Virus record (IMG/VR): IMGVR_UViG_3300045119_000359
Location: 1 to 54,810 of that record
Length of the DNA stretch: 54,810 nucleotides
From: a virus
Strand: one strand, 5' to 3'
Shown here in pieces: positions 2,454 through 42,187 of the stretch. The notes beneath the pieces were generated by a model. That model saw nothing but the letters and a program-made list of their open reading frames with translations. It searched no databases and had not been told where the DNA came from. Position 1 is the first letter of the stretch. Each line of letters opens with the position of its first letter. Position numbers and translations under genes: made by a program.

Positions 2454-2933
2454 ATGCCGCTTCTCAACTACACCACGGAGGTAAGTGCCGAGCGATCGGT
2501 AGCGGAGATTCAGTCCAAGCTGGCCAAGGCCGGTGCATGGCAGATTCTCCATGAATACCAGCGCGGCACCGGAGAGTTGATCGGGCTGTCGTTTCAGATC
2601 GACACTCAGTTTGGCCCAATGGCGTTTCGCCTGCCTGCCAACATCGACGCGGTGGAGAAAGTCCTTATCCGGCAACGGGTACGTCGTCGGCCTGACCTCA
2701 AAGCCCGGGGTCAGGCCACTCGGGTAGCGTGGCGCATCCTCAAAGACTGGGTGGAAGCCCAGCTCGCCCTCATTGAAACCGAGCAGGTTAAAATGGAGCA
2801 GGTCTTTTTCGCCTTCGTGCAGGACAGCAAGGGACGGACACTCTACGAGGCGTATGAGGAGAAAAAGTTTGCTGGACTGTTGATGCCCGGCGAACGCAAA
2901 GTGGTTCACATGGAGGAATCGAAATGCTCGTAA
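2454..2933 (+). CDS. Conserved phage protein, replication-region type (159 aa)
   Basis: A 159-residue protein beginning MPLLNYTTEVSAERSV. It contains the segment VAWRILKDWVEAQLALIE and a LYEAYEE motif near the C-terminus. This pattern recurs in many tailed phages next to small early genes; no biochemical role is known to me. It lacks transmembrane segments and cysteine clusters until the last residues. The ATG directly follows the preceding stop, and its own end overlaps the following glycosyltransferase by 10 bases, so it lies within one transcription unit. Confidence 0.8.
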   Translation: MPLLNYTTEVSAERSVAEIQSKLAKAGAWQILHEYQRGTGELIGLSFQIDTQFGPMAFRLPANIDAVEKVLIRQRVRRRPDLKARGQATRVAWRILKDWVEAQLALIETEQVKMEQVFFAFVQDSKGRTLYEAYEEKKFAGLLMPGERKVVHMEESKCS

Positions 2934-4636
2934 TCTACCCATTCAGCGTCGTTGACCAGGATCAGGCGCTCAAAAACGCGCTCTGGATCAAGGAACTCGG
3001 AGGAAGCGAGGCGCATGACATATTCATGCTGTCTGACAGGAGATGCGACCCGGAGATCTGTCGGCAGATCAGGGAAGCGTTCAAGGGCACATTCAAGCTT
3101 TTGCAGCACCGCATGACCAAGAACGACATTGATGGATGGCCGCAGGGCGCAAACCAGTTGTTCTGCTACTCCACCTGCCTCATCCAGAACGAGCGAGGAT
3201 GGCCGTATTTTCTCTGGCTTGAACCGGATGCCATTCCCATCCGCCCGGGTTGGCTGGACTCGCTGGAGGCAGAATACCGGCTCAAAGGCAAGCCGTTTAT
3301 GGGAGAGCGCGTTGACCTTGGAGAGAAAAGGCCGGACGTCCCGGTGCACATGAGCGGGGTCGCCATTTACCAGAACCCGATTTACCTGCTGGCCGGTGAA
3401 GCGTACCGCGCCCATGAAGTGGCCTGGGACATCGCCGCCAAAGACCAGATCCTGCCCAACGCGCACTTCACGAAACAGATTCAGCATTATTGGAAACACG
3501 GCACGTTCACCGACCTGAGCGGCATCAGGCCGGAAACCGTGATTTTTCATTCATCGAAGGACGGAAGTTTGATTGACTTGCTCCGCTCGCAACGCAATGG
3601 TGTGTCGCGGGATGGAGCAGCGGTAGCTCGCCACGCTCATAACGTGGAGGCCGTGGGTTCGATTCCCACTCCCGCGACCATCAAAAAACTCCCCCACGGT
3701 GTTTGGGTCATTGAAGGTGACACCATTATCAGCAAGCAGGTAGAAGACAGTGGACGCCTTGATTTTGATCTCCTCATTCCTCACATCCTCCAACACATCA
3801 GACCCGGTGATACCGTGGTTGATGTTGGTGCTTTTATTGGGGATCATACTATTGCGTATTCTCACGCGGTAGGGAAAGACGGCAAGGTCATTGCCTACGA
3901 ACCCAGCCTGTCTGCCTTCCACTGCCTTGTGCATAATGTGGAACGATGCGGAAATGTCTTTACCTTTAATCACGCCCTTGGCGCATCACCAGATGTGGTC
4001 AGAATGACCACTTCTGCCAACGCCGCCAGCAATTACATCGGCGGAGTTGAGGGCGATAACATCATTGTCCGGCCACTGGACGAGGACATCTCCATCTTTG
4101 AGCGGCTGGACTTAATCAAGATCGACACCGAAGGCTACGAGCTGAAAGTCCTCAAGGGAGCGGAGAAACTCATCGAGAAATTCCATCCCAAACTGGTGGT
4201 CGAGATAAATGAGATCGCCTTGAACCGGCAGCACGTTACTCCGGAGGACGTCATTGCTTGGATCGTGCGGAAGGGCTACCAGGTCAGCATCCTTCACCGA
4301 CATGGCCCTGACGTTCCCTTTTATGACATTTTGGCAGTCGCCAATCGGCCACCGGAGATTTCAAGTGACGTCGGGATTGCCCATACTGACGAATCGCCCG
4401 CCGTCGCGCCTCCGGTGGCTGCCCATCGGCATCCCACCATCAAGGAAGAAATCGCATGGCACGTTGAAGTGCTGAGAGCATTTTGTGAACACGACCCTCA
4501 AACAAAAGCTGCGGTCATGCAGAAGCTGGTGTATTCTGGTCTTAGACAACCTAACAAGAAAAAGAATGCCACTTCAAAAACTCATAAACAAACCAACGGG
4601 AAACGTAGGGCCGCTGCTGAAGAACGCCAAACCTGA
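2924..4636 (+). CDS. Glycosyltransferase-like / FkbM methyltransferase fused frame
   Basis: One open frame of 570 codons holds two recognisable enzymes. Residues 1 to about 225 resemble phage glycosyltransferases, with a LWLEPDAIPIRPGWL metal/nucleotide-sugar motif and a terminal HSSKDGSLIDLL signature. Residues about 255-450 are an FkbM-type SAM methyltransferase: VVDVGAFIGDHT is the SAM-binding loop, IKIDTEGYELKVLKGA the conserved core, and LVVEINEI the later strand. Between them lies a complete tRNA gene (3606-3680) read in frame as residues 228-252. No stop separates the halves, and no ATG precedes the methyltransferase; only GTG codons inside the tRNA could start it. The pair probably modifies a virion or host surface glycan. 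Whether it is a true fusion or two genes joined across the tRNA is unresolved. Confidence 0.75.
   Translation: MLVIYPFSVVDQDQALKNALWIKELGGSEAHDIFMLSDRRCDPEICRQIREAFKGTFKLLQHRMTKNDIDGWPQGANQLFCYSTCLIQNERGWPYFLWLEPDAIPIRPGWLDSLEAEYRLKGKPFMGERVDLGEKRPDVPVHMSGVAIYQNPIYLLAGEAYRAHEVAWDIAAKDQILPNAHFTKQIQHYWKHGTFTDLSGIRPETVIFHSSKDGSLIDLLRSQRNGVSRDGAAVARHAHNVEAVGSIPTPATIKKLPHGVWVIEGDTIISKQVEDSGRLDFDLLIPHILQHIRPGDTVVDVGAFIGDHTIAYSHAVGKDGKVIAYEPSLSAFHCLVHNVERCGNVFTFNHALGASPDVVRMTTSANAASNYIGGVEGDNIIVRPLDEDISIFERLDLIKIDTEGYELKVLKGAEKLIEKFHPKLVVEINEIALNRQHVTPEDVIAWIVRKGYQVSILHRHGPDVPFYDILAVANRPPEISSDVGIAHTDESPAVAPPVAAHRHPTIKEEIAWHVEVLRAFCEHDPQTKAAVMQKLVYSGLRQPNKKKNATSKTHKQTNGKRRAAAEERQT
3606..3680 (+). tRNA. 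tRNA-Met (anticodon CAT), CCA encoded
   Basis: A full cloverleaf can be drawn. The acceptor stem CGCGGGA/TCCCGCG is a perfect 7 bp (3606-3612 with 3670-3676). The D stem is GAGC/GCTC with the AGCGGTA loop. The anticodon stem CCACG/CGTGG carries a CTCATAA loop (anticodon 3638-3640), and the T stem GTGGG/CCCAC carries the TTCGATT loop. The discriminator A is at 3677 and an encoded CCA at 3678-3680. The C1-G72 pair and the lack of three consecutive G-C pairs next to the anticodon loop point to an elongator Met tRNA, or an Ile2 tRNA if the C is lysidine-modified, rather than an initiator. It lies in sense orientation inside the 2924-4636 reading frame. Confidence 0.93.
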
Positions 4637-4659: not shown

Positions 4660-5298
4660 TTAAGCGCCGCCCTTCACGACAACCTTTGCCGACCCCGGGG
4701 GATCGACGGTCACGGTCAGCACCGGAATAGACACATCGCCAGTGGAAGGCGGTGGCGTGTAGGCCGGAGGAGTGTCCTCGATGTGAACCCCTGAGATCTT
4801 GCTGGCAATGGCCTGACAGATTGTTTCAAAGTTGCGGTCGTACAGCTCGGCATCAGCCGTGCTGTCCACGAAGCAGACTTCGATCAGAATAGCCGGTTCA
4901 TCCGTGTTGTTCAGGAAGTAAAGGTCGTCCCTTTCCTTGGGGCCGCGGTTCAGGAAGCCACCGGAATGCGAGATCGCTGCGGCCACTTCCGACGCAAGGT
5001 CTTCCTGTGACACGAACAGGCACTCTGTTCCCATGGGTTTGGTTGTGGTTTGGTAGGCGTTAAAATGAACGGACACATCAAGGTCGCGTTCCTCGCCGTT
5101 GTGGAAGGCCACAATCCGTTCCAGGTTCTCGCTTTGCCCGGTGGAGACGTCATCATGGAACACTTCCGTCTTTACGCCTGCTCCGGCGAGCATCTCCGCC
5201 ACCCTGTTGACCACTTTTCGTGCTTCATCCACTTCATCGAGGTATCCGCTTGCTCCCCGGATGAGTTTCCCGTGACCGCTGCTTATTACTATTTTCAT
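4660..5298 (-). CDS. N-acetylmuramoyl-L-alanine amidase (Amidase_3), endolysin
   Basis: A 212-residue zinc amidase that cleaves the bond between muramic acid and the peptide stem of peptidoglycan. The zinc ligands and catalytic residue are visible: His9 in ISSGHG, a Glu in DEVDEARKV (22-25), His78 in DVSVHFNA and Glu140 in AILIEVCFVD. The last ~50 residues are a Pro/Thr-rich tail (ASKISGVHIEDTPPAYTPPP) that may serve as a linker or wall-binding extension. I start at ATG 5298, which follows the upstream stop by four bases; a start at 5340 would overlap that gene by 38 bases. It is the last gene of the virion operon and has no signal peptide, so release needs a holin, or the enzyme acts from the virion. 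Confidence 0.9.
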   Translation of the reverse strand: MKIVISSGHGKLIRGASGYLDEVDEARKVVNRVAEMLAGAGVKTEVFHDDVSTGQSENLERIVAFHNGEERDLDVSVHFNAYQTTTKPMGTECLFVSQEDLASEVAAAISHSGGFLNRGPKERDDLYFLNNTDEPAILIEVCFVDSTADAELYDRNFETICQAIASKISGVHIEDTPPAYTPPPSTGDVSIPVLTVTVDPPGSAKVVVKGGA

Positions 5299-5302
5299 AT
5301 TT

Positions 5303-6886
5303 TTATCCCGAAGTATAGACCGGCCTGTGCCCTTTTCCACGCTGCCCTTTTGGAGTAACGGTCGGCTGGTAGTAGTGCGTCCCGAGCATGGCGGGAATCA
5401 TCACCAGTACAGCTTTCCCGAATGACCGAAGGACTTTCTCGTTGAAATCCGCGGGAACCCCGGTGTCCTGCGACATCTCCTCGGCAAATTTATGGATGCC
5501 TTCCTCGGTGAAGATGGGGCCAAGTTCCGCTGTGACAAATTCCAGCCAGTGCGCTGTGTCAGCCGGTGCCTTTCCGAACGGTGCGGGAACATCAGTCCCA
5601 CCGAAACCGTAGCCTTTCATCAACGTGCCTACGAAGTTGATGAATGGATGAACCTTGCCCAGAGCGTAGTTTCCGAAGATGGTAGGAGCCTGTTTCGGGT
5701 GCATGCCCATTCTTATCAGAGTACGGATCATCGACGTCTCTCCGCCGGTCGGGTTCAGGATGCTGCCATCCGGCCCTTTGGCACTTCCCCAGTCCGGGGA
5801 ATCAAAATCACCAAGGTTGATCTTCTCATCGCTCCCGAAGAAATGCGTGAGCAGCAACTGGTTCAGCATCAGGAGCGAAGTTCCTGTCAGGGCTATGCGA
5901 ATCCATTGCCGTGTGTTGTAACCGGCCATGTAACGCGCTTCAGGGCTGGCGTCCCTCCACAGTTTCTGGAGCTGGTCTCCAACCACGGGCACCTTGTTCA
6001 GATTGTGCCGCGCCAGCGTGGTCATTGACTGCCCCAGGTCAACCGGACGCATCACGCGCCCCACATCAAGAGATGGCGCAAAGGAAACACCCCGGGCGAA
6101 TTCACCGAATTTTCCGGACAACGCCAGTGCCGCGCTGGGGCCGGGGGCACCTGTCATGTGGGCGACATTTACGGAAATTCTCTTGCGCAACTCATCCGTT
6201 CTCAGGTGCTCGGGCGCACCATCCCATGCGGCGTCCCAGGCCATGCTCCGGAGTTCCTTCAGGCCAAGGAAACTGTTTGAAAGCATCCTGCCGAGTTTGC
6301 CGAAGAACCCGCTGCGGTGCTGGATGTCGTCATAGATCTTGCGGGGATCAATGGGAAGGCCGCTTGTTACTTTCTCATCGAACCGTGGATCGAGCATGAT
6401 ACTCTGCGCAATCTGTCGGGCGTTGGATTCGCTCATGGAACGCCATGAATCAGCCCAGGTTTTTCCGTAGGCTTTCCACATCATCGGGTCGAAGGCATAC
6501 GGCCATGCGTGTGTTCCGTGCAACGCAGCCTGGTGCCCGACCACCTTCAGGGAATAGGGAGCCTGATAGAAACCCCGGAAGAACCTGTTGAGCGGCGATC
6601 GCTCCGTCCCTTCCACGAACGTACGCGCCTGCCGGAGCATCTGCGCCCTGTTCCTGTCGGCCAGCAGCAGGTTCTTGGTGCGGAGCCTCACCGATTTGGG
6701 AGTCGCCAGCAGGCGTGCCACCTCCTCCGGCACCATGCGGATGCCCTTCTGGGCGTAAATGTCGTCAGACAGCCTGTGCGTCAGCTCCTTGAAGTCCGGG
6801 TAACCGTAGCGACCGGGCTGCTTCAGATAGCGTTCCTTGGCGTAATCCCAAAGCTCCTTAGCCTCCTTGATGGTATAACAGGCCAT
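5303..6886 (-). CDS. Probable ejected internal virion protein, LPD-like (527 aa)
   Basis: A 527-residue protein starting at ATG 6886 inside a TAATG overlap with the giant upstream gene. It resembles the C-terminal large-polyvalent-protein-associated regions of phage ejected proteins, with many aromatic and Arg residues. There are two hydrophobic stretches, LTGTSLLMLNQLLLTHFF near residue 335 and AVLVMIPAMLG near 505. In related phages this region often forms the end of one giant polypeptide; here it is a separate gene, suggesting two products that work together. The hydrophobic segments would suit membrane insertion during DNA ejection. The family match is from pattern memory and is tentative; a purely structural internal protein is the alternative. 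Confidence 0.6.
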   Translation of the reverse strand: MACYTIKEAKELWDYAKERYLKQPGRYGYPDFKELTHRLSDDIYAQKGIRMVPEEVARLLATPKSVRLRTKNLLLADRNRAQMLRQARTFVEGTERSPLNRFFRGFYQAPYSLKVVGHQAALHGTHAWPYAFDPMMWKAYGKTWADSWRSMSESNARQIAQSIMLDPRFDEKVTSGLPIDPRKIYDDIQHRSGFFGKLGRMLSNSFLGLKELRSMAWDAAWDGAPEHLRTDELRKRISVNVAHMTGAPGPSAALALSGKFGEFARGVSFAPSLDVGRVMRPVDLGQSMTTLARHNLNKVPVVGDQLQKLWRDASPEARYMAGYNTRQWIRIALTGTSLLMLNQLLLTHFFGSDEKINLGDFDSPDWGSAKGPDGSILNPTGGETSMIRTLIRMGMHPKQAPTIFGNYALGKVHPFINFVGTLMKGYGFGGTDVPAPFGKAPADTAHWLEFVTAELGPIFTEEGIHKFAEEMSQDTGVPADFNEKVLRSFGKAVLVMIPAMLGTHYYQPTVTPKGQRGKGHRPVYTSG

Positions 6887-9800
6887 TAGCCGCAGACCTC
6901 CCTTAGTTTGGTGACCCAATCCAGCGTTGCTGGCCCTTCACGGTCAGTCCTGATGCGCTTAAATTCGTTGTCCATGGTATTGTAAACGTCAGCATTGGAC
7001 TTCATGTAGTCAGTCTGGGTCTCTTTTGTCTTCTGAGCAATCCTGCGGGCTGCGCCTTCCTCGGTCACCATGGGATCCCTGCCGCGAATCTCCCTGAACC
7101 GCCGCATTAGCCCGGTGTAGGATGTGGCGGATGCCGGATCTAGCGGCGCGTAGCCATTGAGCACCGGCAGCGTCTCCCTGGCCACTGCATCCATTGGCCG
7201 GTAGGCATTGGAAAATTTCTCCTCGACATTCAATGCTTCGTTGAACCTTTTCAGGAGACCTTCATCCTTCGGGTGCTTGGTCAGCGCGTCACCAACCTGA
7301 TTGGTAATCGACTGGAGATCGTTCAGGTGCGCCCGGGCTATTCCCATGGACGAAGTGGTGACCTTTCCGGTTCTCTGGAAATCCCTGACCACCTGATTGG
7401 GATCACCGCCTTTGGCCAGCCAGTCCTTCCCCTTGGTCAGAGCTTCATCCCATCCAATGGGTTCCCGGGGTTTCTGGTCTTCTACTGTCCGAACGGGTTC
7501 TTCATCGTGCCCGTAATGCCGGGCGGCTTCGGCAGCTCCGGTAGCTGCGTCTTCGTTGCTGGCGGTGCCTTCAAGGATGTCACCGAGGGATCCAGCCTGC
7601 TGATCTGTCTCTCCAGCTCGTTCAGCGCCGGTTGGTCTTTGTCTTTGAAACCTGACATCTCCCTGTGCATAGAACGAAGATACACGCTTGCGAGGAACTT
7701 CTGTTTCGTCGGGTCGTTCGGGGCCAAGGGCCGCACTAGACTTAAAGCTCTCGGCACGATTTTTCGTATTGTAATCCTGGAGTCTTTCATTGATCTGGTT
7801 GAAGGTATCCCAATGTTCAGCATAGATGTTTCTGAGGGCTTGTAAAAACTTTTCCTGTGGCACGCCCTTGGCTACCCTTCGCGCCTCGTTAGTCCCTTCC
7901 TCCGTGGTAAACGGCTCACCCTCGGTGCGTTTGGCAACATGGGTGATTTCGTGGTTGAACAGGTAAAAGGTTTCCGCTGCTGCTGCCTCTGGGCTGGTTC
8001 TGGCATAATGCGACAGAGCACCGGGGTTGACCCAGATGGCCTTGAAAGGACTGACCGTGTTGAGACCACGATAGCTCTTGTCGTAGGAAACACCGCCGAA
8101 CCATCCGGTGTGATCGGTCTTGGCGAGGTCAGCGTATTTCTCGCCAACCGCCTTCCCGAATTCCCGCATGTACTTGATGAGCGCGTTCCCGATCTTGGTT
8201 TCAAACTCCGCCGCCCCGGGTATGTCATCGAACTTGGCGTCGGTGTTATTGTGCAGATACGGCTTGGTAGGATCGAGGTGGCTTACGTCCAGCTTGGTCT
8301 TTTCAAAATCGACTTCCCTTTCCGGCTTGAAAGAAGGCTTGATGTACTGCTCAGGCGTGGTCTCGGTTGATTCACCGCCGGTGTAATGCGTTACGATCCT
8401 GTCCTTGCCAATATCTACGCTGGTCACCTTCCTTGGAGTGTATGGCGCGATCTCCCGCTGGGATTTGGCGGCGGCATTGATCCTGTCCACCTGCTCTTTA
8501 GTCAGGCTCTTGGTAGGATCAATGTCAGGAAGCTGCTTGATGGTCTTGAACACATCCTGTGCCTCAAGTAACTGCTGCTCGACAGCCTGGTTCTTGAAGT
8601 ACTGGTACATGGAATCCACATCTTTCTTGATGGTGGATCGGAATCCCTCCCGCTGGTTGTTAAAGGGATAAGCCGGGTTGTCGCCTCTTACATTGGGCCT
8701 GACGTCCAGCGCGAAATTGTAGGGGATCTTGGCCTCCCCGTAGCCGTAAACATCATTGCCATAAATGTCGAACTGATGCAGCCCGGCTGAAAGGACGTTG
8801 AACTTCGGGTAGTCGGTCTTGAATTTCGGATCGACGTAAACGTTGATCTTACCCCATGAGAAATTGAAGGTGTTATCCTTCTGCCAGTCCTTCTGGTGAA
8901 CCCCGAGAGGAAGCGTTTCCCCGTTCTTAACCACCTCGACAGGTGCCAGCAGTGGCTTGTCCAGAAAGGCCGGGTACTTGTGAAAATCAATGGCATGCGT
9001 TTCGCCATTGTTGTCAATGTAGCTCTTGGGTATCTTCACGGTGACCGTTGTGCCGTTAGGCTCATTGGTCTGTTCCTTCAGGATTTTAATAGTGGCCTTC
9101 GATCCTTCCTCAAGTGTCTGGGCTATCTCGTCGCTGCTGACATCTACGGTGGATTTCAGTTTGTCTTTGACTGTTTCCAGTCTGATTCGCTCCGACCCGA
9201 GCTGGAATGCCATCTTTGCCGCGCCCAGGCCGCCGGAGGTGTTTTCCGGAGAGCCAGTCTTTTTGGTTCCACCGATCGTGAAGAACGCCTTGCGCACTGT
9301 CTCCGGGGTCATGCCGATTCCGGTGTCCTTTACGGTGATCGTCCTTTTGTCGGCATCGTAATCTATGTGGATTGTCTTGGGATTTTTCGCCGTCGAACCG
9401 GCTTCACGCGAAGCATCGAGGGCGTTTTGCAGCAGCTCCTTGGTGGTCACCTCCAGTATCGGCTTTTCGTACATCGACTTTCCGAGTAGCTGGACGATCT
9501 GCCTCTTGTTCATCCCCATCTGGATTTGATCTTCACCACTGGAGGAATGAATGAGCGTGCTCCCCTTGTCGGCAGCCGCCGCAAGATCCATGTCGAGTTG
9601 CTCCGGAGACTTCTCATACCCCGGGGCAGAGGATTTCATTGGAAGCTCAGATCCCGGGAGGTCAGGCCCGAACTCGCCCTCATGGGTGAGTGCCACCAGA
9701 TCGGGATGCATCGGCCAGTTCTGCCACCGTGCCAGTTCAGCCTTCAACTGTTCGATCTTCCTTTGAACCGCCACCGGGTCTTTGACATCCACTCCCAGAC

Positions 9801-12800
9801 GCGCTGCCAGCTTTGGGTTTCTGGCCGCGCCCTGTACCGCGGAAATCTGCTGCCGAAGGCCGCGCTGGATCTTCATGGCGCGAGCTGCCTGCTTCTCCAT
9901 CTGTCGCATGGCGGCGTCATCGAACCTGAACAGGTCTCCTGTCTCTGGATGCTCGGCGGCGCGACCCAGTGCCGCCTTCACCAGATTGGCTGCGAAATTG
10001 GCGGGCTTCCCTTCAAGGGATGACCTGATTCCTACCTGCTGCGCACCGGGGTTGCTCGGCGCTGCCTCCGCTATCTCCTGAGCCGCACTGTCGGTAATCC
10101 TGCCCGACTGGTGTAGCGCAAAAAGGTCTTCGCTGCCGTCTCGCGCAATTTGGAATCCGGCTTGGCCTTTTGCTCTCGCCAGAAGTCCTCTGGATTCGGC
10201 ATCTGCTTGGCTGAGTTCCGAGTGTTTGAAGTAGTTTGCATAATCTCCTACGCTCCCTTTCTCGTCTCTGATGTTTAGCTCGGCGTCAAGCCGCGCTGCT
10301 GCTGTCGCATCGAATCCATCAGACTCACGATGGATCTGCGATGGAATAGTGTCCTCTCCAGTTCGACGCGCCAGATCGAAGCGATGACGACCGGAAATCA
10401 GCTCCAGGTCGCCATTGTTACGCTGCCAGAGTTGAACCGGTGCTGTGCCTGTGCGCTCATATTTTCCGGCCAGCGGCTCAACAACTCCGCGCTCATTTGC
10501 ACCGGCCTTGAACTGCGGGACGTCTTTGGACAGGGTGATATTGTCCAGCGGGATCTCCATGGTAGGCTTGCCGGTAACCTGCGTGGTGGTTTCCGGAGGA
10601 GGACGCCGCGTTGGTGGCAATGGCAGCGGAAATACATCGCCACCAGCTTGCTGCTGTTGCTGCTGTTGTGGCTGCGCAAGCGCGTGAAGCGCGTTCTTAG
10701 GGACTTTAGGCGGCGGTTCCGGTGGAGGAAGCTCTCTCGTCTTTTCTGCGCTCGTTTTCGACGTCACTCTGGAGGTAGGCACGCTCCTCGTCGGAGATGG
10801 GATACTCGGGCCACCAGTTGAGGTCGTCGATGGCTCCGATTCCGGAGTTTGTGTCGATGTCGTCTCCGCTGGTTTCTCGGTTTCCGGAGTTACCGTCTGG
10901 GCCGGTGTTTCGTCCGTCCATCCCTTGAGTCGCTTCAGCTCCAAATCCGCTGCTTCGATCTCCTGCTTGCTCGCCTTCCATTCAGGCAGTTTACCAGTCC
11001 TCCGTGCTTTTACAATATCGGATACAGCACTCGCGGCGATGTCCGTGGCGTCACCTTCCGCCTTGTCAATCCGGCGCGGCTTCTTCTCCCCAGGAAGGGC
11101 TTCCCTGATGTCTCCGCCAACATAAACGCCCGGCATACTGGTCTTCAGGCTGGCATCCTGTGGAATTACCGGCCCCGGGATTGGGTTACCCTTTCGGTCG
11201 AAAGTCGGTCTTCTGGCAATTCCTTCCGGCATCCATCCGGTGTTCAGGCCAGTGGACAGGAAGTTTTCCAGATGCGCCACAGGAATGTCCACCACTTCTC
11301 CGGTAAGTTTCGATTTCCCATTGGCATCTGTTACTCTTTTCGCCACCTGCACAGTAACTCCACCAGTGGATGGATCTGGTGTTATTTTCTTGACCTCACC
11401 CTGCACAAACTCAACCCGGCCTTGTTTCTCGTAGGCTCTGAGCCTTTCCATTTGATCCGCGCTTGTCTCAGGGCCGAATGGACTTCGGGACAATGCGACG
11501 ACCTTTTTGGTTCCTTCCCGAAGTGCTCCAATGATTGCCTGAGTAGCACTGTTACCTGCGCCATTGGTCATCCCCACCTTTCCAGTAGAAAGGCGACTAA
11601 ACCGTTCGGCGTTTCCCCATCCGGAATGCTCAAATCCTGGTAGTTCTACTATCTTTGATCCGGTCAGGATGCCTACCCGCATGGCAGGTATTACTCCGTG
11701 GTGTTTTGTAATGATGTCCACTCCGCCGTCTGGTCGTGGCTTCAGATTAACCACCTCAACTCCTGTGCGAATCTCTGCTCCTCGATTTCGGGCTGTCAGG
11801 TAACGTGGACGAAAATAATCCCTGCCGGTAGTCCCTTCACCGGATGCCCCGGTGTTGATAATCTCCAGTGACCTCTTGGATTGGCCTCCGGTGCTTGTTT
11901 CCCTCTCCACTACAACAGTGTCAACGCCCTCGTAGGCAGCTTGAGCGGCAGCTTTTAATCCGCCTGCTCCTCCACCGATGATAACAAATTCCCGGGGCTT
12001 TCCTGATTCGTTGCGAATCTTATGTATGGCATCCCATGTGTTCCATAGGTCGGTCAGCACGCGGTCGTGCTCTATCGCAATGGTGCGCCGGTCTTCGCGT
12101 GCCTGTCGGGATTCACCCACCGGCTTCTTTTGTTTCAGGATATTGCCTGCCTGATTTCTCAGGTCGGCTGTCCGGGCCAGAAGCTCAGTAAGCCTTGGAT
12201 CATCCGATACCTGCTGGCCGGGTACGGCTGCGTCTGCCTTTCTTTTCGCCAGTTCCTGCGTGTATGCCATCCCTACAGGCGGCGCATTGGGATCGGCGTT
12301 CTGTGACTTGATGTACTCCTCAAGTTGAGGAGTGGTCATCTTGACTGGATCGGTTGTTACCGGCAGTCCACCAGGTTCCTGTTCCGGCTCAGTGGGTGTT
12401 TTAACAACCTCCTTCGCTGCCGCTGCCGCGTTCTGGAGAAAGTCGGAATCCAGCGTTGCTTTACTGGCAGTGGCCTCCTCGATCGTGTCAGTCAGATCTC
12501 CTACAGTGGCCGTGGGATTTCGTTCATCCACGACGGCGTATTGCTCGCCTCGTTTCTCGATGACGAACGGAGTCTCTCCCAGTGGCGACCCCTTGCCGTA
12601 TCCACCGGTTGCCGCGTACATCTCCTCGGCTCTCTTTACTTCTCCAGCCCGGGATGACTCAGGTGACGGCTCTAGTTCGGGCGGCGGTTCTTCACCGGAA
12701 ATGATTTTCCTGAGATGGGCTATCTCGTCCACCCTCTCCTGAATTTTCTCCTTTGGTATTCCATCTATTTTCGACAGAATGTTAATCTCGTTCTGTGCTT

Positions 12801-13650
12801 CCCCGATACGCCGCTGGAAACCCTCCATTTGATTTGGAGCTATCTGGACTGGCGGCTTGTCGATCGGCATGGCTTCAGTGCCCGGAGCTGGTATCGGTGC
12901 ACCGGGTAGTGGCTGTTCAACTCTTGCCGTTTCGGACACCACGCCGGGTGGAGAAAACTGCTCGGGCTTAAACGCTCCTGGCACTGGCGGGATTGCCGCG
13001 CCGGGTCGCGGCACTGCTCTTACGCCCGCAGGAAGAAACGGTTTCGCCATGGTGATCCCCATGATTGCATTGGCTACATCGCCTCCTACTGTCTCGACCT
13101 GCTCTGCAAGAGGCTTCTGACCAAAATTCTCGTAGCGGTAAGCCTCTGGATACATCTCCCTGTTGACCTGTTCCATCGGCTCGCCCTGAGCCAGTTTGTT
13201 TATGGCCTGACCGCTTTTGATAACTTCCTCGACTCCACCAACGACCGGGGTGGCAAACTCCGCCGCTCCACGCCATGATGTCGGCACAAAACCTGCCAGC
13301 ACCCTTCTCATGCCTTCGGCCACCTGATTTGCTTCCGGAGTGTTACGCCATAGATACTTGCCGGGATCTTGGGAAAACGGAGTTTCGGTTGTTCCGTAGA
13401 GCGACCGCGCCCTCTGGTTTACTTGAGCAAGGTATCCGGCTGCGCTGCCAAGTGCCTGATCCGTGGCTGGCTGGCTTGGAGGCGGTGTGGACGACTGAGC
13501 CGGAGCGGGTGTGCTTACCAGCTTTCCCCCAAGATCCGATAAATCAGAACCACCGCCACCGGGCGAAGGTGTGTTTACCGGAGTAGCTCCAAGATCGGAT
13601 AGATCAAGGGACGATGACGAGTCCTGGGTCACGTTGCTTGGCTTGGTCAA
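6886..13650 (-). CDS. Giant polyvalent virion protein (2254 aa) with TrxR-like, ParB, GHKL ATPase and zincin modules
   Basis: Modules in order: a Pro/Ser/Gly-rich N-terminus with a doubled DLSDLG motif (residues 17-41); a FAD/NAD-binding thioredoxin-reductase-like fold (about 553-880: VIIGGGAGGLKAA, STGGQ, then TNGAGNSATQA and MPGVYVGGD); a low-complexity linker with a seven-Gln run near 995; a ParB-like domain (about 1030-1107, ISGRHRFDLARRTG) with its usual helical extension; a GHKL/Hsp90-type ATPase (about 1375-1545: ELLQNALDA, DTGIGMT, SGGLGAAKMA); and a zincin-like HEITH motif at 1900-1904. Such mixtures define phage polyvalent proteins thought to enter the cell with the DNA. The only cysteine seen is residue 2253, so the reductase-like domain lacks a CxxC pair. 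The frame begins with TTG at 13650 (a GTG at 13632 is possible), overlapping the previous gene. Confidence 0.85.
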   Translation of the reverse strand: MTKPSNVTQDSSSSLDLSDLGATPVNTPSPGGGGSDLSDLGGKLVSTPAPAQSSTPPPSQPATDQALGSAAGYLAQVNQRARSLYGTTETPFSQDPGKYLWRNTPEANQVAEGMRRVLAGFVPTSWRGAAEFATPVVGGVEEVIKSGQAINKLAQGEPMEQVNREMYPEAYRYENFGQKPLAEQVETVGGDVANAIMGITMAKPFLPAGVRAVPRPGAAIPPVPGAFKPEQFSPPGVVSETARVEQPLPGAPIPAPGTEAMPIDKPPVQIAPNQMEGFQRRIGEAQNEINILSKIDGIPKEKIQERVDEIAHLRKIISGEEPPPELEPSPESSRAGEVKRAEEMYAATGGYGKGSPLGETPFVIEKRGEQYAVVDERNPTATVGDLTDTIEEATASKATLDSDFLQNAAAAAKEVVKTPTEPEQEPGGLPVTTDPVKMTTPQLEEYIKSQNADPNAPPVGMAYTQELAKRKADAAVPGQQVSDDPRLTELLARTADLRNQAGNILKQKKPVGESRQAREDRRTIAIEHDRVLTDLWNTWDAIHKIRNESGKPREFVIIGGGAGGLKAAAQAAYEGVDTVVVERETSTGGQSKRSLEIINTGASGEGTTGRDYFRPRYLTARNRGAEIRTGVEVVNLKPRPDGGVDIITKHHGVIPAMRVGILTGSKIVELPGFEHSGWGNAERFSRLSTGKVGMTNGAGNSATQAIIGALREGTKKVVALSRSPFGPETSADQMERLRAYEKQGRVEFVQGEVKKITPDPSTGGVTVQVAKRVTDANGKSKLTGEVVDIPVAHLENFLSTGLNTGWMPEGIARRPTFDRKGNPIPGPVIPQDASLKTSMPGVYVGGDIREALPGEKKPRRIDKAEGDATDIAASAVSDIVKARRTGKLPEWKASKQEIEAADLELKRLKGWTDETPAQTVTPETEKPAETTSTQTPESEPSTTSTGGPSIPSPTRSVPTSRVTSKTSAEKTRELPPPEPPPKVPKNALHALAQPQQQQQQQAGGDVFPLPLPPTRRPPPETTTQVTGKPTMEIPLDNITLSKDVPQFKAGANERGVVEPLAGKYERTGTAPVQLWQRNNGDLELISGRHRFDLARRTGEDTIPSQIHRESDGFDATAAARLDAELNIRDEKGSVGDYANYFKHSELSQADAESRGLLARAKGQAGFQIARDGSEDLFALHQSGRITDSAAQEIAEAAPSNPGAQQVGIRSSLEGKPANFAANLVKAALGRAAEHPETGDLFRFDDAAMRQMEKQAARAMKIQRGLRQQISAVQGAARNPKLAARLGVDVKDPVAVQRKIEQLKAELARWQNWPMHPDLVALTHEGEFGPDLPGSELPMKSSAPGYEKSPEQLDMDLAAAADKGSTLIHSSSGEDQIQMGMNKRQIVQLLGKSMYEKPILEVTTKELLQNALDASREAGSTAKNPKTIHIDYDADKRTITVKDTGIGMTPETVRKAFFTIGGTKKTGSPENTSGGLGAAKMAFQLGSERIRLETVKDKLKSTVDVSSDEIAQTLEEGSKATIKILKEQTNEPNGTTVTVKIPKSYIDNNGETHAIDFHKYPAFLDKPLLAPVEVVKNGETLPLGVHQKDWQKDNTFNFSWGKINVYVDPKFKTDYPKFNVLSAGLHQFDIYGNDVYGYGEAKIPYNFALDVRPNVRGDNPAYPFNNQREGFRSTIKKDVDSMYQYFKNQAVEQQLLEAQDVFKTIKQLPDIDPTKSLTKEQVDRINAAAKSQREIAPYTPRKVTSVDIGKDRIVTHYTGGESTETTPEQYIKPSFKPEREVDFEKTKLDVSHLDPTKPYLHNNTDAKFDDIPGAAEFETKIGNALIKYMREFGKAVGEKYADLAKTDHTGWFGGVSYDKSYRGLNTVSPFKAIWVNPGALSHYARTSPEAAAAETFYLFNHEITHVAKRTEGEPFTTEEGTNEARRVAKGVPQEKFLQALRNIYAEHWDTFNQINERLQDYNTKNRAESFKSSAALGPERPDETEVPRKRVSSFYAQGDVRFQRQRPTGAERAGETDQQAGSLGDILEGTASNEDAATGAAEAARHYGHDEEPVRTVEDQKPREPIGWDEALTKGKDWLAKGGDPNQVVRDFQRTGKVTTSSMGIARAHLNDLQSITNQVGDALTKHPKDEGLLKRFNEALNVEEKFSNAYRPMDAVARETLPVLNGYAPLDPASATSYTGLMRRFREIRGRDPMVTEEGAARRIAQKTKETQTDYMKSNADVYNTMDNEFKRIRTDREGPATLDWVTKLREVCG

Positions 13651-14605
13651 CCTGGTCTGGAGAAATTGCCCACTGCTTGCCGTCCGATGTCCTGACGTTC
13701 ACCGTGGTTCCTGATGGTGCGGGAATTGGAGCTATGGTCGATTTTTGTGCCTGAAGGTCTTGCCACTGCCTGTTCAGATCGACAAACGTCTGGGTAGGCA
13801 CCTTTCTGGGATTGGGAAGGATCTTTCCCGTGGCATCCCTTTGGTAAACCAGCTTGTATCCTGTCGGCTCAGGTGGTGTTGGTGCTGGGCCGAAACCCGG
13901 TATGTGCCATCCTTGAGGTTTGTACTCAGTCTTGAGCGTCGGGCTGTCCTGCTGGTAGTTCAGCACGGGATTCAGATCCGTGTTAGTTCGCGTGCCATAG
14001 AGCGTGTCGCTCATGGTGTGCATGAAGTCCTGCGTTTTCGCGCCAAGAGCTTTCTGCTTCAGGTTGATGGCGGCGGTCTCGTCCTTGTCCACCTGATTGG
14101 TGAAGTTGTTCAGGACGGATGGCGGAAGCTTTCCTGTCAGGGACGCTGCGCCATTGAGCATGAAGGTTCGGTATCCCGGGTCACCTGGGTTAAGACCTTT
14201 CGCTGCGGCCTGCGACTTGAGACCCAGCAGCGATGTTTGTCCCGACATCAGGTCGTCGTATTTCTGGTAGGCCAACTGGGAAACATCGGTCTGATGCTGG
14301 TAATCATTCTGCATCTTCTGGCGGGCTATGTCAGCCATGGTCATCTTGTAGTCGTTGCCCAGTTGCTGCTGGCCCATCCTCAGTGCAAACTCTTTTTCCT
14401 TGAGCTGGCTGTCGGCTTCCAGTTGAGAATTCCTAAGTGCCAATGCCTGCATTTTACCCTCAAACTCGTCCCTCTTGAGTTTCAGGCCGGTAGTGAGCGC
14501 CCATGCGTTCAGGAACTTTTCCGCCGGGTTACCCAGTGCGATGTTCTCATAGGGAATCCTGTCAGCAGCCGCCTGCTGCTGGTTTAATCCTGATGCGTCT
14601 GGCAT
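13604..14605 (-). CDS. Putative internal virion protein (333 aa)
   Basis: A 333-residue soluble protein. Residues about 25-110 are strongly helical and rich in Gln, Glu and Lys (MGQQQLGNDYKMTMADIARQ), likely a coiled coil. The middle is Asn/Thr-rich, and the C-terminus holds a Pro-rich stretch followed by VRTSDGKQWAISPDQ, resembling short repeats seen in ejected phage proteins. It sits between two other candidate internal proteins and overlaps the giant gene by 47 bases. No enzymatic motif is seen; the virion assignment comes from position. Confidence 0.6.
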   Translation of the reverse strand: MPDASGLNQQQAAADRIPYENIALGNPAEKFLNAWALTTGLKLKRDEFEGKMQALALRNSQLEADSQLKEKEFALRMGQQQLGNDYKMTMADIARQKMQNDYQHQTDVSQLAYQKYDDLMSGQTSLLGLKSQAAAKGLNPGDPGYRTFMLNGAASLTGKLPPSVLNNFTNQVDKDETAAINLKQKALGAKTQDFMHTMSDTLYGTRTNTDLNPVLNYQQDSPTLKTEYKPQGWHIPGFGPAPTPPEPTGYKLVYQRDATGKILPNPRKVPTQTFVDLNRQWQDLQAQKSTIAPIPAPSGTTVNVRTSDGKQWAISPDQVDQAKQRDPGLVIVP

Positions 14606-14614
14606 AATGACCTC

Positions 14615-15652
14615 CTAGAGTACTAAGTCTTCAAAACCGGCTCCGCCGGAAGGAACTTGGTTGAACAAAACCGGGTTACCGCTCGCACCACTCGGGTAAC
14701 CAGACCCAAACCCGGGGCCGAAACTTCCTCCGAACCCGAATGGATTGTAACCTGCGGATGGCTGGAACGAACTCCACATATCCACTCCTCCGGTTGGGCC
14801 GGTGCTGAGATTGTATGAAGTAGGATCGCCGGGCTGACCAAAGGGACTCATCGCACCGGCGTTGAATTCATCCGCGCCCTGAAAGGGAGCGCCACCGGCG
14901 TTGCCGCTGAACAGGTTTCCTGGCTGAATGGCCTGCTCACCGGCGTACTGGGAAGGGCTGTAACTCGGCGCTGTTCCGCCGCCACCCTTGCCACCTCCTC
15001 CATGAAGCCCGCCGAGGTAAGCACCAAGCAGGTTGATAATGGTGTCGCTCACGCCCTTGGCCACCGGGTTGGGAGCAGCGTTCAGGTTGTTCTGAAGCTG
15101 CTTGGTCTGCTGCTGGTAGAGCCTGTTCTGCATGGTTGCCCCGAACTGCTCCGATGGCGACACGAAGAACGAGGCCGGATTCATCACCAGACCGGAAGCG
15201 ATCTGCGCCCATCGCTGCGCGGCGTTTCCCGCAGTTTCCTGCAACTTTGATCCCTGGTTAATCATGTCCAGTGAAGTCAGCCCAAGGTTGCGTGCCGTGT
15301 TCGACATTCCCATGGCTCCGCTCATAAGCCCGGACTGGAGGTTCTGGAACGCGGAGCTTCTGGTGACCGAGTTGATGACGTCCTGCGGTATCTGGCCGCT
15401 CAGAAACTCGCTGGCGGTTCCCTGCATTTTCTTGGTGAGATCGCCACCCATGGCGAGGATGTCGGAAAACCCGGGGATGGATTTGTCCATGAACCCGAGC
15501 ATGTAATCGTAGTACTTGCCGCCGAGTTTTGATATGTCGCCAAAGGCAGCCAGGTTCTCCTTGAGCGCCTTGATCTGTTCTTCGCCCAGGTTGGTTGGAA
15601 TGTAGGGAGCTACGTCAGGGGTATCCCCGAAGACTTCTGTTAGCGGATTCAT
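14615..15652 (-). CDS. Putative internal virion protein with Gly-rich tail (345 aa)
   Basis: A 345-residue protein whose first half is helical (MQGTASEFLSGQIPQDVINS) and whose second half is strongly biased to Gly, Pro, Ser and Phe (GGGGKGGGG near residue 220, GFGGSFGPGFGSG near 310). The layout is typical of internal or ejected proteins of short-tailed phages, which are often helical, low in cysteine and divergent. It starts at ATG 15652 with GGAGG-like sequence absent, close behind the adaptor-like gene. No family is recognised. Confidence 0.6.
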   Translation of the reverse strand: MNPLTEVFGDTPDVAPYIPTNLGEEQIKALKENLAAFGDISKLGGKYYDYMLGFMDKSIPGFSDILAMGGDLTKKMQGTASEFLSGQIPQDVINSVTRSSAFQNLQSGLMSGAMGMSNTARNLGLTSLDMINQGSKLQETAGNAAQRWAQIASGLVMNPASFFVSPSEQFGATMQNRLYQQQTKQLQNNLNAAPNPVAKGVSDTIINLLGAYLGGLHGGGGKGGGGTAPSYSPSQYAGEQAIQPGNLFSGNAGGAPFQGADEFNAGAMSPFGQPGDPTSYNLSTGPTGGVDMWSSFQPSAGYNPFGFGGSFGPGFGSGYPSGASGNPVLFNQVPSGGAGFEDLVL

Positions 15653-37605: not shown

Positions 37606-38221
37606 GGAAATTCTCGCTTTCTTTGTTGAGCCAGCAGAAGCCCGGGTACATTGATTGCACCTTTTGTGATTCTGTGTCAAGGGTCTCGATTGGAAAATGC
37701 ACCTTTGCCTGTAAAAAGCATTTGCAGACGGCGCAGGTATTTATGGAGGCGTCATGCTTGGAATGCTTGTCCCGGACAACCTCCTGAATGGCCTGCTGGC
37801 AACCGGCGCATCCCTGCACATTGACGTTGAGGTAGCAGCGCGAGCAGATCAGCGCACGCCGGTCGGCTTCCTCCTGTGAGACGTACTTGCATCCACCGGC
37901 GATCCATCGGGCAAAGGTTTTCAGGCCGCCAGCGACATCGTTGTAGGAGAGCGACAGCGTTGGCCTTGGCCGGTTGTCGTCATCGTACCTGCACCAGCCC
38001 GGGGGAAGGCTCTGGCAAAGCTGGTTCTGCATCTGCGCTCCCAGGTCGAGCGGAATTTCCCTGTTGTTGACCTGAAGGTGACGCGCCTGGATGTCCACCC
38101 AGTCAACGTAAGTCCAGGCGTGGGCGATGAAGCCGTCCACCGGATCGACGTATCGGAAACCGTCCGGCGGGCATGGCCCCCACTCGTTAGCGAGACAGAG
38201 CTGCGTATTGCGGGATGACAT
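37544..38221 (-). CDS. Cysteine-cluster protein after terminase (225 aa)
   Basis: A 225-residue protein starting MSSRNTQLCLANEWGPCPPD at ATG 38221, overlapping the terminase end by 35 bases. The C-terminal half has ICSRCYLNVNVQGCAGCQQ, then CAVCKC and a later Cys, giving at least three CxxC-type pairs that could bind two zinc ions. The last ~20 residues overlap a broken small gene and may be a replaced end. I know similar zinc-finger proteins next to phage terminases, but no function is established. Confidence 0.65.
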   Translation of the reverse strand: MSSRNTQLCLANEWGPCPPDGFRYVDPVDGFIAHAWTYVDWVDIQARHLQVNNREIPLDLGAQMQNQLCQSLPPGWCRYDDDNRPRPTLSLSYNDVAGGLKTFARWIAGGCKYVSQEEADRRALICSRCYLNVNVQGCAGCQQAIQEVVRDKHSKHDASINTCAVCKCFLQAKVHFPIETLDTESQKVQSMYPGFCWLNKESENFHGGKEELDPRRGQPKAQGIL

Positions 38222-39854
38222 TGCGTTTCTGGAGAAAGCGTTTCCACGGCGTATCCGGGCGCTCCTCGGAATGGGAATACTCGTTAGGCGAAAGATGGCA
38301 TCGGGCCGCGGCCACCTGCGCGGTGACCACATCGGCGTCGGCGATGTCGGGGCTTCTTCGGGTGCGGTCTTTCATTTTCTGCTTGGTTTCCAATGAGATG
38401 ACAGGGCCGCGCATCATCCACCAGCGGCGGCAGAATTCCATGGCGCTCTCAGGGTCGAGTCCCCGGATCTGCTCGTTGAGGAGGATCAGCCGGAAGAAGA
38501 ACCACAGCTCTGTGACGCGGCGGTCATATTCCTGATCCGCTCTCTTAGGGTTGGTATTGGAAACCGGATTGCTACTCGGCCTTCCCCCGAACTCGACACA
38601 GAGGATTTCACGACTCCATTCCCTTTGAAAAATTGAAGCCAGGCCGCCGCCTTCTCCCGTAGAGTCGAGTCCGAAATAATATGGTGTAACGCCTTCATTC
38701 TTGCATGCCTCCTTTACCTGCCTGACAATCTGGTAATGCGCGGGGTCATCCGGCTTCACTTTTGTCTTGATAAAAAGCTTCCGGCCCAGCCTGAGTGTCA
38801 TCTTACCATTGACCTTCCCGCAGTGACCGAGCCTGAGCACGCATCGGTCATCCCCTTCAAAGGCCGGATCGAGACCAGCTACGGGAAACACTTCCTGATC
38901 GAAGGAACAATCCTCAAAGCTGCTGCTTCTCATAATCATGGGCATGGTGAGGACGGTCTTGGTGATTCCTTCGGGTGCCCAGAACCCGCGCCGCATCTGC
39001 CAGAACTGCGGTGAATCGACGCCGTACACCTCGGTCGTGGTATTGATGTCGGCCTGCGTCAGAAGCCCGGGGTAATTCTTGGTCTTGTCGGTGATGTTGG
39101 GAGATTTGAGGCCATCGAGGTGGATGCATGTCCCACGGCGCGTTTCCCATTCCGTGGATTCTACATCCACGGAGTTCCAGCCAGCACGCGGCTCGGACAT
39201 GCGCCCGTGCGGGTCGAGCATGTCGTCGGCGTTGCCCAGGCCGATGAACTGGAAGGATTTGGCCCCTGTTTCAAGGTTTACGCACGCTTCCACGATCGCT
39301 TCAGGCGTGTAAGGCATCTCATCCACGATGACCACCATGTTGGGAGCGTGAAACCCGATGATTTTTCCGATTGCCTTGTCGATTTCCCCTTTGTCAGTAG
39401 CCAGTCCGAAAATACCCGCATCATCATGGCCTTTTCGGTATTGGATACAGTTGCGGGACTGAACCATGTGACCGAAAAGTGGTCGCAGCCGGTGGAAATG
39501 AGATATTTCCTTCCAAACTCGTCGTCGGAGACCGTCCAGTGTAGTGGAGGTGACGATGACAACAGTGTCTTTCGGGCTGGAATAGAACCGGGCAAGGCCA
39601 AAGAGTCCGGCGGAGGTGGTTTTCCAGGAGGCGGCAGGGCCGGTGACCGTGCACCAGGGATTTTCAGCGAATGTGCGCTGCATCCACTCGCTCCAGTCGT
39701 TCCAGATGTAGGTTCCTGGGTGATATTTGTTCCAGGTGAGATCAATGGCGTTGCGCAGATGCTGATATTTGCCAAGTCCAAGAGGCGGATCATTGGCAAA
39801 GCACCAAAACTCAATCGCTTTCTGGTCGCTGGTTGGAAAGTTCAGGCCGTACAT
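38187..39854 (-). CDS. Terminase large subunit (555 aa)
   Basis: The DNA-packaging motor. The ATPase has a Walker A-like loop TGPAASWKTT (residues 71-80), with Trp where the second Gly is usual, and a Walker B MVVIVDE (173-179). The nuclease domain supplies acidic residues D329 (AGLDPAF), D397 (FGLDSTGEGGGL) and D506/D508 (IADADVV), the usual RNase H-like triad. Length is normal. It overlaps the small subunit gene by 44 bases, and binds the portal to drive genome entry. Confidence 0.92.
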   Translation of the reverse strand: MYGLNFPTSDQKAIEFWCFANDPPLGLGKYQHLRNAIDLTWNKYHPGTYIWNDWSEWMQRTFAENPWCTVTGPAASWKTTSAGLFGLARFYSSPKDTVVIVTSTTLDGLRRRVWKEISHFHRLRPLFGHMVQSRNCIQYRKGHDDAGIFGLATDKGEIDKAIGKIIGFHAPNMVVIVDEMPYTPEAIVEACVNLETGAKSFQFIGLGNADDMLDPHGRMSEPRAGWNSVDVESTEWETRRGTCIHLDGLKSPNITDKTKNYPGLLTQADINTTTEVYGVDSPQFWQMRRGFWAPEGITKTVLTMPMIMRSSSFEDCSFDQEVFPVAGLDPAFEGDDRCVLRLGHCGKVNGKMTLRLGRKLFIKTKVKPDDPAHYQIVRQVKEACKNEGVTPYYFGLDSTGEGGGLASIFQREWSREILCVEFGGRPSSNPVSNTNPKRADQEYDRRVTELWFFFRLILLNEQIRGLDPESAMEFCRRWWMMRGPVISLETKQKMKDRTRRSPDIADADVVTAQVAAARCHLSPNEYSHSEERPDTPWKRFLQKRNVIPQYAALSR

Positions 39855-40750: not shown

Positions 40751-42187
40751 TTATTCGGCCATGACTTTCTTCATCCGGCGTGCTGCTCTTGCTGCTCGTA
40801 CGGCAATGATGCGCTTCTCTCTTTCCTTCCTTCGCTCGGCGTCTGCCAAGTTCTTTTTCCCGCCGAATGCTTCATAAGCCGCATCGAGTGAACGGTAAAC
40901 CGTCAGTTCTCCGCGACGTTCGGCACGTTCAACGAGCGCATGCGCAATGGTCTCGCTTCCCAATATCCCGCAGCAAAACTCCAAGTCACTGACGAGAGTC
41001 CACGGCTTGCTTTGTTGCATCATCCATCGAATAGCCGGAAGATCAACGGAGTTCCCGCCGTGAAGCGTCTTTTGTGGCAACTCTCCCGCGTACCGCTTGC
41101 CTTGGTGCGCGTAAATGGACAAGTCACCTTTTGCCGTGTCATATCCCGAATAGTAACCCACGGTTGCGGTCGGGACTAAGGCACAAAGCTCGCTCAGGTT
41201 GTCTCGGTTTGCGCCCATTGAACCGCTCGCGTCGATCAACACCGTTCCACCGGGTTTTTGTCTCACTCGGCGCGAGAAAAGCCCGTTGGCATCTCCACTG
41301 ACTACCGCAGAAACGTAGCGTGTCGGGTTAATGATTACACCGTTGGGCGCGTTGCGTCGGCTGATGGTCTTTTCCTTGGCGCAAAAGACAGACTTTGGCC
41401 GGAGGTCGTGAATGTCCATTTTACCGTCGAATGCGTCACCGTGTTCCGGTGGCATCAGTATTTCGCCGCCTTCCTCGGTTTCGATTTCCTCACCTTGTTC
41501 CGGTTCGGGTTGCTCCATCAGGGCAACGAGCATCGAAATCGCTCTGGCGCGTTTACTGCGAAGCTTCGCCATTTTAACGACTTGGGCGACTCCCGAAAAC
41601 ATGTTGTCACCGATCGCCTTCCGTACCTTGTGGTAACCTTTCGTCCGTGCCTTAATCTCGGAAGCGTTCCCCTGCCCGTAATGATGCAACATCGCCACGG
41701 TTCGCACCGCGTTTAAGAGGTTGCCGTTGCGAAGCTGTGCCGTGTCGTCTTTCGGGTGGCGCGTGATGTGCCGCTTGTTCTTCAACAGGACTCGGACTCC
41801 ATCCATGGCCGTCTTTAGGTGCGCTCGGCGGTACGGCCGAATTGAGGCAACGTCAGGAAGCGGCGAAGTTTCAATGTTTACATCGTCCACGATCTGTCCG
41901 GCGATTGCCTCGTTTTCGGTTTTGGGTTTCTTCCGGCGCGGAGTGTGCCGTGTGGCGTGCCGTGTCTCATGGCCGCGCACGGTGATTCCATACGCATCAT
42001 CCGAAGCGGGTGCGCCGATCTTAACAACATTCCCGCCTCCTGTCTCTCTCTCGTACTCGGTGAAGCCGCCAATTTGCATTGCGTCGGTTCGCTCCTTCAG
42101 TACGATTTGCGCCTTTCGTAACTTTCCGTCCGGTACGCTGGCGCGTATTGCATCGCGCACCGTTCGTTTACTCGGTTTTGCTTTCAA
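40751..42187 (-). CDS. vWA-domain protein with HExxH metallopeptidase-like N-terminus (478 aa)
   Basis: The C-terminal half is a von Willebrand A domain: TVLIDASGSMGANRDN carries the MIDAS motif (D319, S321, S323), with later TLVSDLEFCCG as another acidic loop. The N-terminal region has GHETRHATRH (HExxH at 73-77, further His at 81), then a basic stretch and IVDDVNIET, a layout like the metallopeptidase-plus-vWA (DUF2201/CobT-like) proteins that pair with MoxR-type AAA+ ATPases. An acidic linker (about 226-250) separates the halves. The ATPase partner is encoded just upstream at 42461-43210. The pair probably remodels or metallates a target protein; the target is unknown. Confidence 0.8.
   Translation of the reverse strand: MKAKPSKRTVRDAIRASVPDGKLRKAQIVLKERTDAMQIGGFTEYERETGGGNVVKIGAPASDDAYGITVRGHETRHATRHTPRRKKPKTENEAIAGQIVDDVNIETSPLPDVASIRPYRRAHLKTAMDGVRVLLKNKRHITRHPKDDTAQLRNGNLLNAVRTVAMLHHYGQGNASEIKARTKGYHKVRKAIGDNMFSGVAQVVKMAKLRSKRARAISMLVALMEQPEPEQGEEIETEEGGEILMPPEHGDAFDGKMDIHDLRPKSVFCAKEKTISRRNAPNGVIINPTRYVSAVVSGDANGLFSRRVRQKPGGTVLIDASGSMGANRDNLSELCALVPTATVGYYSGYDTAKGDLSIYAHQGKRYAGELPQKTLHGGNSVDLPAIRWMMQQSKPWTLVSDLEFCCGILGSETIAHALVERAERRGELTVYRSLDAAYEAFGGKKNLADAERRKEREKRIIAVRAARAARRMKKVMAE

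Follow-up and report, generated by a model that had tools for sequence, protein, structure and literature searches.

What does an uncultured short-tailed phage gain from a single late gene that appears to join a thioredoxin-reductase-like fold, a ParB-like domain, an Hsp90/MutL-type ATPase, and an HExxH zincin motif? The question is raised by the IMG/VR virus record IMGVR_UViG_3300045119_000359, whose 54,810 bases are referred to here as the window and in which this gene (P0001) occupies positions 6886 to 13650 on the minus strand, starting with a TTG codon at 13650 and encoding 2254 residues. The combination had been proposed in a sequence-only reading, and all its residue ranges for the modules proved correct. 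By sequence and structure comparison, we found four distinct modules whose signature motifs are all intact. Judged from its sequence, the gene very probably encodes a phage-type polyvalent protein: two or more domains of unrelated activity lie in one polypeptide, the gene is found among late genes, and the ParB module is shared with the established LPD38-bearing polyvalent protein of phage X14. As part of an explanation to which, as a whole, we give a probability of about 0.6, we further propose that the product is a late, probably virion-packaged protein that would be ejected through the short tail and act in the first minutes of infection.

The reading frame was confirmed to be a single open one, with no internal stops, and was compared with that of a sister phage found in a 54,543-base contig (L008), which has a large terminase subunit (TerL) 90% identical to that of the window and the same gene order. 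The L008 protein aligns at window residues 256 to 347, 486 to 910, 1018 to 1329, and 2050 to 2248. The reductase, the ParB module, and the C terminus are therefore colinear in an independent assembly, which confirms this part of the frame. The alignment stops at window residue 1329 and resumes at residue 2050, the two points being 17 residues apart in the sister protein, and no GHKL ATPase was found anywhere in the whole L008 record. The segment missing from L008, residues 1330 to 2049 (7504–9663, minus strand), holds the GHKL ATPase and the zincin, and this GHKL-zincin cassette was thus gained or lost as a unit. Every module also occurs separately in other phages, as would be expected had the frame been assembled artificially from unrelated genes, but we rejected such a chimera as extremely improbable: besides the colinear sister, independent contigs carry ParB, GHKL, and zincin in succession, the base composition is even, and neither a stop nor a frameshift interrupts the frame.

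The ATPase of the cassette (residues 1372–1700; 8551–9537, minus strand) comprises a GHKL nucleotide domain and a middle/transducer domain. Pfam (HATPase_c, E = 4.1e-9), NCBIfam (HSP90 family, E = 2.3e-12), and Foldseek (Hsp90/TRAP1, E = 3.5e-11, with MORC2 and GyrB close behind) agreed on the predicted ATPase, the latter two placing it with the Hsp90 type. The Foldseek alignments to TRAP1 and Hsp90 cover about 400 columns and extend beyond the nucleotide domain, so that both the N-domain and the middle domain of Hsp90 (HtpG) type are matched. The GHKL motifs consist of an N-box (E1405, N1409, and D1412), G1 (D1442 and G1446), G2 (G1473 and G1476), G3 (G1533 and T1534), and an invariant arginine, R1667. 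Conservation was counted in 36 relatives with 25 to 53% identity; apart from alignment gaps, E1405, N1409, D1412, D1442, G1446, G1473, G1476, and G1533 are unchanged in 35 or 36 of them. The protein thus shares the N-domain and middle-domain fold of HtpG and TRAP1, but a zincin stands where these have their C-terminal dimerization domain.

This zincin-like metallopeptidase domain (residues 1785–1960; 7771–8298, minus strand) bears the predicted HExxH motif as HEITH at residues 1900 to 1904, and H1900, E1901, and H1904 are invariant in all 36 relatives. A possible third ligand lies at position 1910, which is Glu in the window and His in 31 or Glu in 5 of the relatives, giving the pattern HExxHx5[H/E]. 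The structure model is confident (predicted local distance difference test [pLDDT] scores of 89–97 across most of the domain). Pfam WLM was matched in three of 26 members of the zincin family (best E = 1.1e-4), whereas none of the Pfam models for polyvalent MPTases was matched. A zincin profile compared with the Protein Data Bank (PDB) gave weak matches, among them a chance one to dynein and others to Wss1 and proabylysin (E = 0.07–0.55). The reductase, ParB, and GHKL modules found matches in fold searches, and the zincin is recognized by its motif and by the WLM matches of its family. In the zincin that the 2017 survey describes for polyvalent proteins, the Glu ligand lies in a second helix (PMC5512222), whereas here a His or Glu lies six residues past the second His. 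The window zincin therefore looks like a different type, and its pattern resembles that of WLM proteins and metzincins rather than that of the polyvalent Glu-zincin.

How widely the cassette occurs was examined with an alignment of the window protein and four ParB-carrying relatives (L011, L035, L051, and L056), which pulled 49 viral loci. When profiles were run over all open reading frames (ORFs) of the fetched loci, GHKL followed by zincin was found in some 40 distinct giant ORFs, and the pair without a reductase is common among giant phage proteins. The order ParB-GHKL-zincin-LPD38 occurs in five other ORFs; the remaining architectures include 17 of ParB-methyltransferase-LPD38, 20 of ParB-LPD38, and one of reductase-ParB, that of L008. 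Since the scans depend on short exact seeds, all these counts are lower bounds. The complete order of four modules was found in the window alone, and none of the other loci among about 150 fetched has both a reductase and a GHKL ATPase, in line with the earlier view that a reductase joined to a GHKL ATPase is unusual. A tblastn search of plasmids did not find the cassette, and its profile, for which a positive control worked, had no match among 274 genomes from a single bacterial class, a small sample. These comparisons show GHKL and zincin to be a conserved, inherited unit of giant phage proteins.

If the two parts act together, which we put forward tentatively and at somewhat less than even odds, the GHKL unit would open and close with ATP, capture or unfold protein substrates, and hand them to the attached zincin, which may cut its own polyvalent chain, proteins bound to or close to the incoming DNA, or both. 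The main rival to this proposal dispenses with a host target: the zincin would process only the polyvalent chain, either ahead of packaging or once ejected, while the Hsp90-like part would only refold or hold that chain around its transit. Self-processing is the leading proposal for polyvalent zincins in the survey, which describes the cutting of phage P1 DdrB before packaging (PMC5512222), and a role in chain handling would suit an ATPase whose strongest match is of Hsp90 type. The cassette, however, turns up whole in many different architectures, whether or not ParB is present. Together with the sister protein, which lacks the cassette at the same point, this indicates that GHKL-zincin is not needed for the transit of such proteins, and we consider the rival unlikely.

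The ParB-like domain was less evident from sequence. Residues 1030 to 1107 had no Pfam match and reached the PHROG ParB family only at E = 0.13, and a sequence profile matched Noc weakly (E = 0.016). The model of residues 1024 to 1318 (9697–10581, minus strand) is confident, with pLDDT mostly 86 to 97, and Foldseek matched it to ParB and Noc structures at E = 2e-6 to 4e-6, with TM-scores by target of 0.62 (6t1f) and 0.59 (7nfu). The matched chromosomal ParB and Noc structures include the CTPase and helix-turn-helix (HTH) parts, and GRHR at 1087 to 1090 and N1126 are kept across the ParB-module family. The module is 51% identical over 296 residues to part of the 2740-residue protein of Shewanella phage X14, which carries a methyltransferase domain and LPD38, a domain confined to phage-type polyvalent proteins in the 2017 census (PMC5512222). 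The module is likewise shared with Vibrio phage proteins, and a scan with four aligned copies reached 89 viral and 10 bacterial contigs. Like the window protein, the proteins of X14 and of Vibrio phages 1.211, 1.183, and D478 are giant, cysteine-free, and encoded in the ejection-protein region; X14, however, has methyltransferase and LPD38 where the window has reductase and GHKL-zincin. In the cell, the ParB core would act as a nucleotide-gated clamp that loads onto the DNA as it enters.

The reductase module (residues 545–885; 10996–12018, minus strand) is a flavin adenine dinucleotide (FAD)/NAD(P) oxidoreductase domain. Pfam Pyr_redox_2 matches residues 555 to 866 nearly over its full length (profile positions 3–289 of 291), with E = 2.9e-9 passing the curated threshold, and the FAD motif GGGAGG at 559, the NAD(P) motif GAGNSA at 697, and the second FAD motif VGGD at 844 are in place. 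The L008 copy is 40% identical over 435 columns and has its own Pyr_redox_2 match (E = 6.8e-10). Against the PDB, a profile built from the two sequences reached thioredoxin reductase (E = 3.5e-9), and Foldseek matched the model to thioredoxin reductases and thioredoxin-reductase-type ferredoxin-NADP reductases (FNRs), from 3e-7. The thioredoxin-reductase-like fold of the earlier reading therefore stands, but its dithiol chemistry does not: the module shares the two-domain FAD/NAD(P) fold of these enzymes and contains neither a CxxC motif nor any cysteine, the body of the sister protein has none either, and the only cysteine of the window protein is residue 2253 (codon at 6892–6894, minus strand). 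We therefore ruled out a dithiol thioredoxin reductase, and a cysteine-less FNR-like flavoprotein fits better. To our knowledge, FNR-type enzymes need no cysteine pair.

Such a module may oxidize NAD(P)H by a route that involves no dithiol, or it may sense the redox state, and we give it an even chance of being a working NAD(P)H oxidoreductase. Several points weigh against the overall proposal: the predicted reductase structure reaches moderate to low confidence and low TM-scores, the sister has a weaker NAD(P) motif (GGSNAV), and the reductase and the cassette, being separable in relatives, need not act together. A cofactor-binding or structural relic with no catalysis, which would agree with the lack of cysteine, with the loosened NAD(P) motif of the sister, and with the occurrence of the module in just two related phages, is possible though rather doubtful; both FAD motifs have been retained in both phages at 40% identity, and the fold relatives include FNR-type enzymes. 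Searches of viral contigs with the whole protein or the plain reductase gave no matches, and alignment-seeded scans found only the sister contig, so that the rarity of the module rests on a seed-limited method. No tblastn match to the reductase was found in named phages, and its profile found none in the same 274 bacterial genomes, here with no positive control. A defence-system reading was discarded, as PADLOC gave a weak FAD-motif match and nothing more.

Several lines of evidence support the ejected-protein position assigned earlier to the gene. It sits within a long minus-strand late operon that starts from a TerL-like gene (38187–39854) with weak similarity to annotated terminases; the genes downstream of it are taken, by size and order, as putative portal, scaffold, and capsid genes. 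The operon includes tail-fibre genes with PHROG matches, followed by the genes at 14615 to 15652 and 13604 to 14605, the polyvalent gene, a gene for a 538-residue protein, and an amidase-like gene (4660–5340), named from its sequence only. Among relatives, the gene directly upstream of the GHKL-zincin giant in L105, whose end overlaps the giant, has a PHROG match to a DNA ejection protein (8.2e-17), and the second gene upstream in L116 has a weak one (4.6e-4). In Vibrio phage 1.211, the ParB-module gene comes after several successive coil-containing proteins, which in turn follow the stabilization protein, and in related phages the gene of X14 type lies after coil proteins and before the tailspike.

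Cysteine content points the same way. In a non-redundant set, the 84 giant ORFs that bear these modules (L002–L144) contain 63 cysteines in 230,415 residues, where about 1,601 would be expected from the 0.695% in 328 other ORFs of at least 300 residues in the same loci, a 25-fold depletion; some of these cysteines precede a likely start codon, and one ORF of 4649 residues (L070) has no cysteine at all. N4-like virion RNA polymerases (vRNAPs) lack cysteine too, which their authors tied to passage through the tail and periplasm (PMC2784036 and PMC3715699). The phage N4 enzyme is also giant, carries an MPTase domain, and is injected with the DNA; the window protein has no RNA polymerase module. 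The depletion supports ejection, short of proof: a chain nearly devoid of cysteine would not be trapped by disulfides on its way through the tail and periplasm. From synteny, the ejection gene of a relative, and this depletion, we consider it likely that the protein enters the cell with the DNA. The protein might instead be made late and not be ejected, acting in the producing cell in assembly or lysis control, a role suggested for GHKL proteins of the rIIA type. The closest annotated GHKL matches in named phages are indeed rIIA proteins (27–32% identity to the N-terminal ATPase of T4 rIIA type), but the similarity spans the ATPase part alone, which in the window is followed by a middle domain and a zincin inside an otherwise cysteine-free giant. 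With the synteny and cysteine depletion just described, and the fusion of the modules with LPD38-type polyvalent proteins, action in the producing cell seems improbable.

The regions flanking the modules and the neighbouring genes complete the locus. The N-terminal region (residues 1–220; 12991–13650, minus strand) has a low-complexity start in which DLSDLG occurs twice within residues 1 to 40 (13531–13650, minus strand), and the sister has comparable repeats, SYEEVVGG and LSWEQVTGG; such a repeated motif is perhaps a packaging signal. The C-terminal domain (residues 2050–2248; 6907–7503, minus strand) is α-helical in the structure model and 61% identical to that of the sister phage. Upstream lie two candidate co-ejected proteins without cysteine, of 333 residues (13604–14605, minus strand), whose homologue in L008 is 35% identical and also lies immediately upstream, and of 345 residues (14615–15652, minus strand).

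The 538-residue protein (5303–6919, minus strand) overlaps the end of the polyvalent gene. In another locus (L007), its homologue lies within a giant ORF (26% identity, E = 1.5e-7), so that the C-terminal domain and this downstream product form one polypeptide, which suggests that the protein belongs to the same machine. As a query it gave no viral-contig match, and tblastn matched neither it nor the zincin in named phages. We do not claim it as the LPD38 carrier, as it has no Pfam match and no match to X14. Its sister counterpart (L008 11533–13203) is 78% identical, whereas the polyvalent protein has gained or lost modules.

Elsewhere in the window, genes that by eye are VWA/CobT-like (40751–42187) and MoxR/CobS-like AAA ATPase (42461–43210) are adjacent on the minus strand just upstream of the terminase genes; the VWA/CobT-like protein had no Pfam match. 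A 75-base tRNA-Met gene with anticodon CAT (3606–3680, plus strand) lies entirely within the ORF at 2924 to 4636, where a linker joins two domains that look, by eye, glycosyltransferase-like and FkbM-like. In the sister phage, the counterpart of this ORF is 60% identical, and no tRNA was detected.

The window protein shares with the polyvalent proteins of Iyer et al. 2017 (PMC5512222) the union of disparate domains in one late-gene product, a zincin, a ParB-superfamily domain, and a module found in an LPD38 bearer. The ParB domain described there is DdrB-like, whereas that of the window resembles ParB/Noc with an HTH, and the paper's main text contains no mention of GHKL, HSP90, thioredoxin, oxidoreductase, FAD, or histidine kinase. 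Searches of the open-access literature for polyvalent with HSP90, or for Hsp90-like with metalloprotease and phage, returned nothing relevant, an absence that is weak evidence. To judge from that literature, the domain set is unreported, and the GHKL-zincin unit was found in no survey there.

Two module types, an Hsp90-type GHKL ATPase and a cysteine-less flavoprotein, would be added to the set in phage-injected proteins. The 25-fold cysteine depletion over 84 giants carries over to a large family what had been noted for N4 vRNAP, and such depletion could offer an easy way to recognize ejected proteins from sequence. That the ATPase and zincin travel as one conserved cassette makes them a well-bounded candidate for a protease or chaperone-protease that is driven by ATP and injected. 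In its boldest form, which we regard as unlikely and advance as speculation, the cassette would be a self-contained ATP-driven protease, an Hsp90-type clamp with a WLM/metzincin-like peptidase, delivered by many short-tailed phages in cysteine-free carriers and here alongside a clamp on DNA and an NAD(P)H flavoenzyme devoid of cysteine. If this is true, the union of an Hsp90-type ATPase with a peptidase in a single chain would represent an ATP-dependent protease of a new kind.

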